The position numbers and the translations under genes were made by a program. The notes beneath the pieces were generated by a model. The model made no database searches and was not told the DNA's origin. It saw only the letters and a list, made by a program, of their open reading frames with translations. From NCBI GenBank assembly GCA_903904005.1, contig CAIVAR010000113.1, positions 1 to 47,141 of the forward strand: 47,141 nucleotides of DNA, given 5' to 3'. Below, in pieces: positions 14,244 through 34,739 of this stretch. Every line of letters starts with the position of its first letter. Positions within the stretch are counted from its first letter, which is position 1. The DNA is from an uncultured Anaeromyxobacter sp. (lineage in GTDB: Bacteria > Myxococcota > Myxococcia > Myxococcales > Anaeromyxobacteraceae).

Positions 14244-15106
14244 GGCGCCGGCGCCTGGGCTGCCGGGAGGGCGCCGGGGGGATCGATGGCCACGAGCACC
14301 CCGACCTCCTCCACGCGGTTCACGTCCACGGCCGGGAGCACCTCGGCCGCCTGGTAGAGGCCGTGCCCGCCCCGCTTCACCCCCGTCACCTGCCCGACGG
14401 GCAGGCCGCGCGGGAAGACCCCGTCGGTCCCGGAGGTGAGGAGCTCGTCCCCCTCGATGAGGTCGTCGGAACGGAGCGCGTACTCGAGCCGGCAGGGGCC
14501 AGGGGCACCCTGTCCCCGGACGTTGGCGCGGGCCCGGGAACGCTCCACCCGGACCGCGATGGAGCTGTTGCGGTCGGAGAGGAGCAGGACGTCGGCGCTG
14601 CGGGACCCGAGGGTGTGGATGCGCCCGAGGACCCCTCCGGGGGTGACCACCGGCATCATCCGGCGGATCCCGTCGTCGCTGCCCCGGTCGATGGTGACGA
14701 GCTGCAGCCCCTTGGGATCCATCCGCGTGCCGATGACCCGCGCGCCGACCACGCGAAGCTCGGGGCGGGACCGGGCGAAGGCGAGCAGCTTCGTGAGCCG
14801 TTCGTTCTCGGCTCGGAGCTGGATGAGATCGCCGTTCTCGGCGCGGAGTTCGTTGACGGTTCGTGACAGGGCACGGGCCTGCCGCTCCACGCCGCGCAGC
14901 CAGACGTAGCGGTTCCAGCCGCCGAGGACGCCCGTCACCACCCAGTCGACGCTCTTCTCGACCGGACTGGTGACGGTGAGGACGAACCTGTCCATGGCGG
15001 TCCGATCACCCGGGTGTCTCGCGTGGGCGAGGAAGACGCCCAGCGGGACCACGGCGAGGACCACCACGACGATCACTTCCCGATAGCGCCTGAGTAGTGC
15101 GAACAA
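14240..15106 (-). CDS. mreC: rod shape-determining protein MreC
   Basis: MreC is the periplasmic scaffold of the elongasome. The 288-aa protein has an N-terminal membrane segment (VIVVVVLAVVPLGVFLA). A coiled coil with RTVNELRAENGDLIQLRAE follows, then the beta-barrel domain with ARVIGTRMDPKGLQLVTIDR, MPVVTPGGVLGRI, VLLLSDRNSSIAVRV and LLTSGTDGVFPRGLPVG. The start appears to be TTG at 15106, supported by GGGAGAAG a few bases upstream. The gene heads mreC-mreD-mrdA-rodA; mreB, usually just upstream, is absent, because the upstream gene is the divergent foldase. Confidence 0.95.
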   Translation of the reverse strand: MFALLRRYREVIVVVVLAVVPLGVFLAHARHPGDRTAMDRFVLTVTSPVEKSVDWVVTGVLGGWNRYVWLRGVERQARALSRTVNELRAENGDLIQLRAENERLTKLLAFARSRPELRVVGARVIGTRMDPKGLQLVTIDRGSDDGIRRMMPVVTPGGVLGRIHTLGSRSADVLLLSDRNSSIAVRVERSRARANVRGQGAPGPCRLEYALRSDDLIEGDELLTSGTDGVFPRGLPVGQVTGVKRGGHGLYQAAEVLPAVDVNRVEEVGVLVAIDPPGALPAAQAPAP

Positions 15107-19171: not shown

Positions 19172-19393
19172 TCACGACTCCCGCAGCCGCAACCGCCCCT
19201 CGTCGTTCACGGCCACCCTGTACTCGGTGCCGCAGTAGTAGCAGAGCACCTCGTCCCCGTCGGAGAACCCGTCGTCATAGGGGTTGCTGGCGTCGCACGA
19301 CGGGCAGTCGAACTCCTTGAAGACCCTTCGCTTGCCGCCCTGGTCGCCGGCGTCGCCCGGTTCGTCGTCGATTCCATGCGGGTCGTACGGCAT
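19172..19393 (-). CDS. small zinc-ribbon protein (73 aa)
   Basis: This 73-aa acidic protein has two CxxC knuckles (CPSC and, 21 residues after its end, CYYC followed by GTEYRV), the spacing of a zinc ribbon. The N-terminal third is Asp/Gly-rich and probably disordered; the C-terminus forms a short strand with NDEGRLRLRE. It may bind nucleic acid or another protein, but nothing specific can be read. ATG 19393 is the start. It converges with yggS (13 bp between stops) and is divergent from the DUF3108-like gene. Confidence 0.8.
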   Translation of the reverse strand: MPYDPHGIDDEPGDAGDQGGKRRVFKEFDCPSCDASNPYDDGFSDGDEVLCYYCGTEYRVAVNDEGRLRLRES

Positions 19394-19511
19394 ACGGGAA
19401 GAGTAGCCATTCCCTTCCTGCTTTCCAACCCGGTGGACCCGGGTTCCCGTCTGGGCATCTGGCGCGCAACGGCGCCCCATCCCGGCTATCCTCCCCGGAG
19501 GAGGTCGCCCC

Positions 19512-20264
19512 CTGATCGCCCTCGCCGCGCTCGCCTCGCTCCTCGTCGCCGCCGAACCCTGCACCCTGCCCACGCTTAGGCCGGGGCCGGTCCCCTGGCG
19601 CGCCGGAGAGGTGCTCCAGTACGACCTCGAGGTCATGGGGATGGTGAAGGCCGGCACGATGTCGATGGAGGCGGGGCGCCCGATGTTCGGCGGGACGCAG
19701 ATCCCGCTCAAGGCCCACGTCAAGAACACCTCGGTCTTCGCCAAGATCCGGCGCATCGTCGGCACCGCCATGTCCTGGGTGGATGCGAAGACGCTGCTCC
19801 CCGAGCGGGCCCGGGACGACGTGCTCGAGGACGGCGTGAAGAAGGTGAGCGACTCCCGCATCCGCGGCGACCCCGCGGCGGTGGTCATCGAGACCGACTT
19901 CGGCGGCCAGAAGGGCTCCGCGCGATACGAGCGGCAGGGGGAGGTCCTCGACGCCCTCTCGGCGGCCTACTACCTGCGCGCGGCGGACCTGAAGCCGGGG
20001 CAGGAACTCTGCTTCGACGTGGTGGGGCTCCGTCGCTTCTGGCGGTTCCGCGGCAAGGTGGCCGTGAAGCCCGAGCGGGTCGACAGCGCGGGCGGCCTCT
20101 TCGACACCCTGCGCGTGGAGGGGACCATCGAGCGGGCCGACAAGCCCGGCACGAAGCGGCCACTCTACGTGTGGATCTCCACCGACCCGCGGCGGGTGCT
20201 GGTGGGCGCGGTGAGCGAGATCGACCTGGGTCCGGCGTCGGCCCTGCTGTCGCGGCCGCCCTGA
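19512..20264 (+). CDS. DUF3108-like secreted protein, probable CTG start
   Basis: The conserved part resembles DUF3108: EVLQYDLEVMGMVKAGTMSM, a TAMSWVDAKTLLPERAR block, DALSAAYYLRAADLKPG and a closing barrel strand RRVLVGAVSEIDLG. The first ordinary start in this frame is GTG 19611, but it cuts into the conserved WRAGEVLQYD segment. Upstream, without any in-frame ATG, GTG or TTG, lies CTG 19512. It has GGAGGAGG 7 nt before it and encodes a hydrophobic leader LIALAALASLLVAAEPC. I therefore place the start at CTG, giving 250 aa with a cleavable-type signal that lacks the usual positive N-region. Such proteins are mostly periplasmic and of unknown role. A sequencing indel upstream is the alternative explanation. 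Confidence 0.75.
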   Translation: MIALAALASLLVAAEPCTLPTLRPGPVPWRAGEVLQYDLEVMGMVKAGTMSMEAGRPMFGGTQIPLKAHVKNTSVFAKIRRIVGTAMSWVDAKTLLPERARDDVLEDGVKKVSDSRIRGDPAAVVIETDFGGQKGSARYERQGEVLDALSAAYYLRAADLKPGQELCFDVVGLRRFWRFRGKVAVKPERVDSAGGLFDTLRVEGTIERADKPGTKRPLYVWISTDPRRVLVGAVSEIDLGPASALLSRPP

Positions 20265-30067: not shown

Positions 30068-31999
30068 GTGGCCGACTCCGCACGCGACGGGGCGCAGGGC
30101 GCCGAGCCAGGGGCGATCTCCCGCCTCCTGCTCGAGATCGCCCAGGTCCCCGAGGACGACCTGTCGGCGTCCTGGCGAGAGCCGCTCCAGCCCGGCGACG
30201 TCGTCGGCCGCTACGAGATCCGGCGCGAGATCGGCCGCGGTGGCTTCGGCGCGGTCTACGAGGCCTTCGACCCGCAACTCGGCCGGACCGTGGCGCTCAA
30301 GGCCCTGAAGCCGGGGCGGTCGAGGCACCTCGCTTCCGAGGAGTGGATCCAGAACGAGGCCGAGGCGGTCGCGAAGCTCGACCACCCGGCCATCGTGACC
30401 ATCCACGACGTGGGTCGCTGTCCGGCCGGCGCGTACCTGGTCATGGAACTGCTGCGGGGCGAGACGCTCTCCGCGCGGATCGGGAAGGGGCCCCTCCCCG
30501 TCGACGAGGCGCTGCGCGTCGCCGAGCAGATGGCGGAGGGGCTCGCCCACGCCCATTCACGGGGAGTGCTGCACCGGGATCTCAAGCCGTCCAACGTCTT
30601 CGTCTGCGAGGACGGACGGGTGAAGCTGCTCGACTTCGGCCTGGCTCACCTGCTGGGGACACCGGGGTCGAGCGGCGCGGGAACGCCGGCGTACATGGCG
30701 CCGGAGCAGGCGGCCGGTGCGGTGGTCGACGAGCGAGCGGACGTCTGGGCGGCCGGGATGGTGCTGGGGGAGATGCTCACCGGGAAGAGACCGGTGGAGA
30801 GGACGCCGTCCCCCGAGCCGGGGGCGGCGCCTGCGGAGCCGAAGACCGAGTTGATGTGGGAGGGGTCAGAAGCGCCGGAACCTGCAACGGTTGGATCGCC
30901 GAAGCTCGCCGGTGTTCCCCGGCCGGTGGCGAAGGTGCTGGGGGCTGCGCTCTCGGAGAATCCGGCGGCGAGGCCGAGGGACGGACGTTCCTGGCTCTCG
31001 GAGCTTCGCTCCGCTCGCCAGCGGGTGGACCGCCCACGCCGCATGCGCAGGCTGGCACTTGTCGGAACTGCGTTCCTCCTGCTGGGCCTGGCCGTCGCCG
31101 GCCTCGCAACCTGGCGGATCTGGGAACGGCAGATCCCGGGAGGCCGCCCCACCGTCGCCGTCGCCGACTTCGTGAACGAGACCGGGGAGAAGGAGCTCGA
31201 CTCCATCTCCGGCCTGCTCATCACCTCCCTCGAGCAGGGTACCCAGCTTCGCGTCCTCACCCGAGGCCGGATGGTCGACGTGCTGAAGCAGTTGGGAAAG
31301 GACCACGTCGAGCGCATCGACGAGCTGCTGGCGCGCGAGGTCGGGAGGGAGACACGGGCGAACGCGCTCCTGCTCGCGTCCATTCGCAAGCTCGGGGACG
31401 CCTACGTGGTCGAGATGCGCGCCCTCGACCCGCTTCACGACGAGTACATCTTCACGGTGAGCGATCGTGCCACCGGCAAGGGGGCCATCTTCGACCTCGT
31501 CGACCGGCTCGGCGCGGCGACGAGGAAGCGGCTGGGCACTCCGGACGCCGCGGCGCCCCCAACGCCGAAGGTGTCCTCGATCACCACCGACAACCCGAAG
31601 GCCTGGTCGCTCCTTTTCCAGTCGCGACAGGCCATGGACCGGATGCACTACGGGGAGGCGCGCCGGCTGGCGCAGGAGGCGGCGGCGGCGGACCCCGACT
31701 TCGCCCTCGCGTACCATCAGCTCGCCTGGGCGGCCTTCTTGCACGAATGGAAGCCCGACAGCACCGGGGCGCCCGGCCTCAAGGAGGTGGAGGCCGCCGA
31801 GGCGAGGGCCAGCCGGCTGCCGGAAAAGGAGCGACTCACCCTCCGGTTGTTCCGGGCGCTCGTCGACAGGCGGCTGGACGACGCCACACGGCTTTCCGAG
31901 GAGGCCGTCGCCACCTACCCCCTCGACAAGGACGTCCTCTTCCAGGTCGGCGACGTGTTCTATCACTGGTGGGTGAACCTGGGAGCCTCGGTCCAGTAA
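30068..31999 (+). CDS. Ser/Thr protein kinase, transmembrane, cut short in its TPR region
   Basis: The 643-aa reading begins at GTG 30068 (AGGGGGA upstream). The kinase domain (about 48-310) is complete: glycine loop [15 protein letters not shown] (K78), LHRDLKPSN (D171), LLDFGLA (189-191 DFG) and [11 protein letters not shown] membrane helix (about 328-348, [21 protein letters not shown]) links it to an extracytoplasmic part. That part has a FlgO/TolB-like domain ([38 protein letters not shown]) and TPR-like helices ([29 protein letters not shown]). TAA at 31997 interrupts one TPR, and the homologous sequence continues in the same frame afterwards. The kinase itself could still be active. 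Such kinases are typical of myxobacterial signalling. Confidence 0.88.
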
Positions 32000-33148
32000 T
32001 TCGAGCGCGCCCTCCAGCTCGACCCAACGAACTTCGCGATCGCCGATCACCTGCTCGATGTCATCTGGTGGACCGGCCAGACCGAGCGGTTCCTCCCGTT
32101 CATCGAGCAGCGCGCAGCGGCCGCCGTCCAGTACGACGAGGCCCAGGTGATCGACACCCCTGCCGCCGCGAGGAAGGCCAACGAACTCGAGACCGTCGCG
32201 GTCGCGCTCCTGGCTGCCGGCAAGGAACCCGAGGGCATCGCGCTCCTCGATCGGGTTGCACGGCTTCGCGGCACTCCCGGCTTCAGGGGCCTCCTCTGGT
32301 GCGCGTACCTCAACTTCCAGGGGCGCATGGCCGAGGCCGAGGCCGAGACCCGCGCCGCGTTCACCCTCTTCGAGCACCCCGAGGAGAATCCACGGCTGAA
32401 GGGGAAGAGTCCCCCGTATCACGCGCTCCATTTCGCGCTCCTCTCGGGCGGGAGGGTGCGGGAGGACACCGCGCTGTGGAAAGGGCGCGTTGGGAAGCCG
32501 GTCCTGCCATCATGGGTAGCCGTCCAGTTCGCGCGTGCGAAGGGGTCGGCGGACGAACTCGAGCCCGCGCTCCTTCTCTATGCAAGAGAGGCCAAGGAGC
32601 CAGCCTGGCAGGTCGACTTGGATGGAGCCCGCTACTTCGCGTTCGCTGGAGACAAGGTCCGGTCGAGGGCACGGGTCCTTGGCGTGAAGTCGAGTCCGGA
32701 CTGGAACACGTCCCTGGTTGAGCTGGAACGTCGTGCCGGGGAGGCCATCCTGGCGTGGAGCGAGGGAAGGCTGGAGGATGCGGACCGGCTACTCGCCGGG
32801 AACCTGGGGGACGCTTCCGTCATGGACCGCTATTTCGGCCGGCAGCTCGCCGGCACGTTCCACTTCACCTCGGGTGATTGCCCGGGAGCGGTGAAGTCCC
32901 TGGAGGAGGCCCGCGCCGTGCCGTGGCCATCGCAGCCCTGGTATCGGTCCTACTTCCTGCCGCTCATCCTCCACCGGCTCGCCACCTGCTACGAGAAGGC
33001 GGGCGACCTCCCGAAGGCGCGCGAGCGGAACGCCGAGATGCTGAAACGGTGGGAGCGGGCCGACCCGGACCTCCCGCTCCTCATCGAGGCCAAGGCGATG
33101 CGGGAGAGGCTGGCCGGGGCGACGGACAGCGCCAGTTCATCCAGGTGA
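32000..33148 (+). pseudogene. detached C-terminal TPR part of the preceding kinase gene
   Basis: Directly after the TAA, in the same frame, the codons read FERALQLDPTNFAIADHLLD, a classic TPR helix that continues the repeat broken at GASVQ. Further repeats follow (PEGIALLDRVARLRGTPG, MAEAEAETRAAFTLFEHPEE, CPGAVKSLEEARAVPWPSQPW, RLATCYEKAGDLPKARERNAEML). The stop is at 33146-33148. The first usable restart is GTG 32147, without a good ribosome site. One base change from a Tyr codon (TAC/TAT) would create the TAA. I read the whole 30068-33148 region as one gene with a nonsense change, a read-through stop or a base-calling error. Confidence 0.8.
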
Positions 33149-34296: not shown

Positions 34297-34739
34297 ACCG
34301 CGTCGCCACCGCCGCCCGCCTCCTCCTCGGCGCCCTCTTCCTCTGGGCCTCGGCCACCAAGGTGCCCGACATGGGCGCCTTCGCCGAGAGCGTCGCCAAC
34401 TACCGCATCGTGCCCGCCGCGCTGGTCTCGGCCACGGCGGCGATGGTGGTGGGGGTCGAGATCGCGGCCTCGGTCGCGCTGCTCGCGAACCTCTGGTCGC
34501 GGGCCGCGGCCCTGGTCCTCGCCGCCCTGCTCGCGGTCTTCACCGTGGGGCTTGCGAGCGCGCTGGCCCGCGGGATCGACCTCGCCTGCGGCTGCTTCGG
34601 CGGGAACGACCCGGCTACCTGGTGGACCGTGCTGCGCGACCTCGTGCTCCTCGCGCTCGCCCTCGGGGTGGCGGCCTCCTCGCGCCCCTCCCCTTCCCGA
34701 CCGGTCTCCCGGACGCCCGACCCGGCTTCGATCCCCTGA
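34293..34739 (+). CDS. MauE/DoxX-like membrane protein
   Basis: This 148-aa protein has four hydrophobic segments: LLLGALFLWASATKV, LVSATAAMVVGVEIAASVALL, AAALVLAALLAVFTVGLASAL and LRDLVLLALALGVAA. The motif DLACGCFGG between helices 3 and 4 is typical of MauE-type proteins. These resemble DoxX and are thought to pass reducing power across the membrane, as in methylamine dehydrogenase maturation. No mau genes are present, so methylamine use is not implied. GTG 34293 overlaps the rhodanese stop (GTGA). Its last 125 bp overlap the convergent methyltransferase frame. Confidence 0.85.
   Translation: MNRVATAARLLLGALFLWASATKVPDMGAFAESVANYRIVPAALVSATAAMVVGVEIAASVALLANLWSRAAALVLAALLAVFTVGLASALARGIDLACGCFGGNDPATWWTVLRDLVLLALALGVAASSRPSPSRPVSRTPDPASIP

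Follow-up and report, generated by a model that had tools for sequence, protein, structure and literature searches.

The stretch of DNA analyzed here (the window, 47,141 nucleotides) is contig C113 of a draft genome of an uncultured Anaeromyxobacter species (G000, 4.56 Mb in 186 contigs). It carries a gene whose product a sequence-only reading had described as DUF3108-like, and a profile search agrees, with a PF11306 match at E 5.7e-24 and 85.5 bits against a curated cut-off of 26, in which residues 36-246 cover profile positions 1-208 of 209. Set against the DUF3108 family, the gene matches the full-length profile and the start codon alone is unusual. The frame (19407-20264) is unbroken over 250 codons, and the protein is 84-88% identical to orthologues of three congeners (G001, G002, and G003); a search of the PDB with this protein sequence turned up no credible relative (best E 0.39). 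At E 0.001 there is one DUF3108 match each in G000 and G003 and two each in G001 and G002, the second being a paralogue directly upstream of the DUF3108 gene, which was not found at this threshold in G000 or G003; the window probably keeps a remnant of it (Table 1). Because a promoter scan upstream of the gene found no sigma-70-like consensus site, the TATCCT in Table 1 is given as a suggestion of a -10 element. No Pfam match was found for the divergent reading frame on the other side (19172-19405).

Table 1. Features of the DUF3108 locus in the window, and the trpE start region in the same genome
Feature	Position	Strand	Remark
Divergent small protein, two CxxC motifs, zinc-ribbon-like	19172-19393	-	likely start ATG 19393
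Probable remnant, 3' end of DUF3108 paralogue	19453-19470	+	17/18 bases identical to G002 (alignment)
Possible -10 element TATCCT	19487-19492	+	in 4/4 genus members (alignment)
Shine-Dalgarno GGAGGAGG	19497-19504	+	7 nt before CTG; AGGAGGT 19499-19505 complementary to 16S tail
DUF3108 gene	19512-20264	+	250 codons from CTG 19512; stop TGA 20262-20264
CTG, very probable start codon	19512-19514	+	aligned with TTG / GTG / GTG starts of G002 / G001 / G003
Hydrophobic leader, probable signal peptide	19515-19562	+	ends at Cys found in 23/23 family loci
GTG, first canonical in-frame codon, rejected as start	19611-19613	+	GTC in G003
trpE start region, L108	G000:C25, about 34378-34420	minus	other loci L105, L106, L109-L127

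The body of the DUF3108 gene is under purifying selection: when the window is compared with G002, G001, and G003, its omega (Nei-Gojobori) is 0.179, 0.228, and 0.185, respectively, i.e., about 0.2. Upstream of base 19611 the corresponding values are 0.578, 0.170, and 0.512; please note that these are rough, resting on about 30 synonymous sites, with the start codon counted in the stretch of "codons 2..33" and with three extra residues of G002 placed at the front of the leader in the protein alignment and inside it in the DNA alignment. The leader may be evolving faster than the body.

The DUF3108 frame opens after TAG 19404-19406. As the sequence-only reading had stated, no in-frame ATG, GTG, or TTG is met between this stop and GTG 19611, which lies 99 nt past the CTG, and direct reading places the CTG seven bases after GGAGGAGG. 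That reading had therefore proposed a CTG start with a strong ribosome site, and the congeners argue for it: the canonical starts of all three align on the window CTG and none lies elsewhere. In the genus the start block reads NTGATCG, where N is C in the window, T in G002, and G in G001 and G003, and it is preceded by GGAGGAGG in the window and G002 and by GGAGG in G001 and G003. Above the ribosome site (19440-19496) the genus loci are strongly divergent in the alignment, and G003 in addition shows a 2-nt gap between Shine-Dalgarno and start in the DNA alignment; this gap, together with the differing sequence further upstream, indicates that coding most likely begins at the start column and that the upstream sequence is noncoding. 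The rival that had been raised earlier, an indel hiding a canonical start in another frame, found no footing, since there is no indel from the Shine-Dalgarno to the codon between the window and G001 or G002.

The family search covered 24 genomes, 23 of which gave a match of at least 43% identity; G017 was dropped, its sole match being 26% identical. Near the same place, the 22 other family loci have GTG (10), ATG (10), or TTG (2) as start, in a tally made by a nearest-codon rule limited to ATG, GTG, and TTG, with the TTG of G002 and the window CTG set by hand and with L013 counted as GTG, where an ATG 21 nt upstream is equally plausible. CTG is the start in none of the three congeners, and all 19 further loci have ATG, GTG, or TTG near the start, these being the codons that the rule sought. 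The placement of the CTG is beyond chance: AGGAGGT with 4-8 nt of spacing precedes just 36 of 30,421 CTG trinucleotides (both strands, 1.05 Mb of G000), and the CTG matches the start columns of 3/3 congeners. Judged by these alignments, the window DUF3108 gene very probably starts with CTG and its congeners with GTG or TTG.

The ribosome site is strong by its predicted pairing. Computed across the 20 nt that precede the start, the Shine-Dalgarno duplex energy is -13.0 kcal/mol in the window and G002, i.e., the CTG and TTG members, and -10.5 and -10.7 kcal/mol in the GTG members G001 and G003; the median of G000 is -5.8 kcal/mol and at least the window strength is reached by 12 of the 831 scored genes (spacing is unweighted in these energies and the 16S tail is the textbook sequence). 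The Shine-Dalgarno is thus longer in the CTG and TTG members of the genus than in its GTG members. Belinky et al. report that a long Shine-Dalgarno compensates for a weak start codon (PMC5622118), and the genus pattern agrees with the compensation described in that work, four members being too few for a test. Speaking against the CTG start, a predicted 91-nt fold has the Shine-Dalgarno paired with a CCUCC just upstream, provided that CCUCC is transcribed. We claim no leader RNA structure because shuffled sequences fold more stably (z +1.5 and +2.1).

Two other codons could be considered as starts. GTG 19611 is the start called when ATG, GTG, and TTG alone are permitted, and initiation there would give a leaderless cytoplasmic DUF3108 protein. 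The sequence-only reading had set it aside as lying inside a conserved block; the block is indeed kept across the family, but the Pfam domain begins two codons later, at residue 36 of the CTG-started protein (base 19617), so that a product from GTG 19611 would keep the whole domain and the objection that it cuts a conserved domain is not strictly right. We nevertheless reject this codon and regard its use as very improbable: it is GTC in G003, its column encodes a residue other than Val in 16/23 family loci, an upstream GGAG is separated from it by just 2 nt, and the leader, a family feature, would be lost. ATC 19515, the codon next to the CTG, could in principle be used like the start of infC, which the genus seems to begin with ATC, and its TGATCG block is invariant in 4/4 genus members. 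However, the congeners have their canonical codon one codon earlier and with better spacing, and initiation at the ATC is the least probable of the readings considered here.

Read from the CTG, the protein begins with the hydrophobic leader LIALAALASLLVAAEPC, just as had been stated. All 23 family loci encode a hydrophobic leader, 15-29 residues long, that ends at the shared Cys, that of G001 being broken by a stop: its orthologue (L003, G001:C127) has TAG at leader codon 9 where the window has TCG, which, judging from the assembled sequence, may be real or an assembly error. Lys or Arg before the Cys is absent in 21/23 family loci, with one such residue in L011 and one in L015. The missing N-terminal charge is therefore a family trait, and the earlier suggestion that it makes export poor, as a peculiarity of this gene, is not supported, since the uncharged leaders include those of ATG-started loci. 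The window has AEPC at this Cys, which we take to be no clear lipobox, and we do not call the protein a lipoprotein for this reason.

The main rival of the CTG start is a consensus error in the draft at 19512, the true codon being GTG or TTG as in the congeners. The genome is a 186-contig draft, the congeners carry GTG or TTG at this very base, switches to CUG are rare as reported in PMC5622118, and the TAG in the same leader of G001 may be an error of this kind. On the other hand, no frame break is seen across the 250 codons, and the switch rate from GUG or UUG to CUG, 2-4 in 10,000 starts by the figures given there, exceeds the rate of consensus errors, which we assume to be about 1 per 100,000 bases; we consider such an error unlikely. 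Another rival is that the gene is a young pseudogene whose start was recently lost: a weak codon stands in place of a canonical one, expression may be dispensable in the genus given the leader stop in G001, and the upstream paralogue seems to be lost in G000. However, the body is intact with omega of 0.18-0.23 (a very recent loss would leave omega unchanged) and the Shine-Dalgarno is retained at full strength, and this alternative seems improbable to us.

We consider it likely that the DUF3108 gene is intact and that the first base of its start codon has changed from the GUG or UUG of the genus to CUG, which would be weakly translated through the strong Shine-Dalgarno; most likely, the change was tolerated because of that site. 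In this model, the well-spaced Shine-Dalgarno (GGAGGAGG, 7-nt spacer) would place the initiator tRNA on CUG despite the C-U mismatch, Met would be inserted, and the short hydrophobic leader would then direct export, with DUF3108 expression being low and sensitive to IF3. The position of the codon, the ribosome site, the start column of the orthologues, and the selection on the body are observed; from these we infer ribosome use of the CTG, the low level, the IF3 sensitivity, and the export. Pairing with initiator tRNA is described as weaker when the first position of the codon forms a C-U mismatch, and CUG is reported at 0.86% of AUG expression (PMC11497404, the latter quoting its ref. 22). 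GUG-to-CUG switches are given as 1/5,080 and UUG-to-CUG switches as 1/2,468 ancestral starts, i.e., very rare (PMC5622118). This rarity and the low reported expression count against the CTG start, as does its presence in a single draft genome.

The expected role of IF3 comes from infC. In 5/6 genomes, i.e., four of the genus and G005, infC has ATC with no canonical codon near the start, behind a purine-rich site (L135, L136, L137, L139, and L140), and that of G019 (L138) has ATG. In the genus, IF3 would thus appear to regulate its own synthesis by way of an AUC start, an indication that discrimination by IF3 is at work there and our reason to expect weak, IF3-sensitive translation from CUG. 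Going further, the genus may trade start-codon strength against Shine-Dalgarno strength (GGAGGAGG with CTG or TTG, GGAGG with GTG), and the CUG would then be a selected, IF3-regulated setting for low expression and no tolerated accident; we regard this extension as unlikely.

CUG is an already known kind of weak start, and the window case is seen in one draft genome. The closest likeness is the rep gene of the FIB replicon of F-like plasmids, which, as described in PMC11983097, has a CTG start with a good ribosome site as the window gene does, and in which a GTG 14 codons downstream is often wrongly annotated as the start; the window gene has a downstream in-frame GTG too. The rep CTG is backed there by N-terminal analysis and a CTG-to-CTC mutation, and its authors argue for CTG use in related replicons also, whereas the window CTG is placed by comparison in one genome. 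According to PMC5472188, sigR of Streptomyces has a GTC start repressed by IF3 and infC starts with ATT or ATC; the window gene would resemble both in having a noncanonical start under expected IF3 control, but sigR and infC have a reported regulatory role there and the regulation of the window gene is a prediction. The window gene is a clean example of how start rules limited to ATG, GTG, and TTG miss the true N-terminus and a probable export signal, and the start column within a genus can expose CTG starts that gene finders overlook.

We surveyed CTG in 1.05 Mb of G000 (37 contigs, 23% of the genome), with 860 genes called by codon score and the starts picked among canonical codons (ATG 512, GTG 292, TTG 39). 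Near coding boundaries, 4/729 CTG are preceded by a Shine-Dalgarno compared with 115/8,560 inside genes; for ATG the figure is 52/634. Frequent CTG starts are thus unsupported, a Shine-Dalgarno-CTG being no commoner near gene starts than inside genes, and CTG is no general start in the 23% of G000 examined. In 15 ORFs, the coding signal reaches upstream past the first canonical start by 30 nt or more; of these, judged by eye, just the DUF3108 gene and an epimerase-like gene look CTG-started; the scan is not exhaustive, as the ATC-started infC is absent from its list. A CTG behind a Shine-Dalgarno at C15:1228 was rejected and read as an internal frameshift, since the preceding sequence seems, by eye, to be coding in another frame.

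The second gene (C33:3635, L099:3635) is NAD-dependent epimerase-like (PF01370, E 1e-25), with CTG at the likely start; in G000, its Rossmann motif is not preceded by any canonical start. The same CTG recurs in G002 (L104), where the GACGGGGGA ahead of it is identical and a one-base indel lies farther up; the G002 gene has a GTG where the Rossmann motif begins and a second one 219 nt upstream of the stretch that matched. No match was found at E 1e-60 in G001, G003, G005, or G019. Judged from the two aligned loci, the epimerase-like gene is a strong candidate for a further CTG start, shared by two species of the genus.

A different departure from standard initiation was met at trpE. A trpE match was found in 23/24 family genomes (none in G018), and 22 loci are readable at the 5' end, that of G001 being cut at a contig end. 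In 22/22 readable Anaeromyxobacteraceae loci, the preceding (-1) frame runs from a start to CTT TGG and meets a stop 9-30 nt past CTT; relative to this mini-frame, trpE is in the +1 frame. The mini-frame reads ATG ACG GTG NNN CTT TGG in 20/22 loci, with variants in G007 and G012. CTT is used 2.0 times per 1,000 codons in G000, and in-frame CTT-TGG occurs once in 302,362 codons. In the trpE frame itself, no ATG lies within the listed stretch in any of the 22 loci, and 15/22 lack a canonical codon in it. Speaking against a frameshift, the third codon of this stretch is canonical in 7/22 loci (GTG 5, TTG 2), and 8 more have CTG in that column; but the other 7 have CTC, CCC, CGC, or GTC, because of which the third codon cannot be the common trpE start. 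Of the trpE loci from one other family of the order, obtained for seven genomes, 7/7 carry an ATG in frame and lack CTTTGG in the vicinity.

We suggest that trpE probably depends on programmed +1 frameshifting at CUU_UGG, where the Trp codon would sense the tryptophan supply. With tryptophan present, the ribosome would read Trp and then stop; with tryptophan short, UGG would be slow, and a ribosome with Leu-tRNA on CUU could slip +1 to UUU and go on to make TrpE. If the slip is restricted to tryptophan shortage, then, we propose, TrpE would be made solely under that condition. CUU followed by a slowly read codon belongs to the known kinds of +1 site, as in prfB. CUU_AGG of Ty1 and hungry codons are described as +1 frameshift sites (PMC5009743). 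Among the literature matches listed, none describes such a mechanism for trpE. The trpE frameshift, if correct, and the epimerase-like CTG kept in two species matter more than the DUF3108 CTG.

Two further loci stood out. On the forward strand of the window, a gene at 30068-33148, which we take from its motifs to be kinase-like, has a weakly TPR-like C-terminal part and is interrupted by an in-frame TAA at 31997-31999, past which the coding signal carries on in the same frame to 33148. In another contig (L047, G000:C7), an ORF on the minus strand near 14452 begins directly behind a TGA, the surrounding sequence being HGAG-TGA-ACK; presumably this is a selD-like gene, with the context as in selenocysteine-containing SelD.
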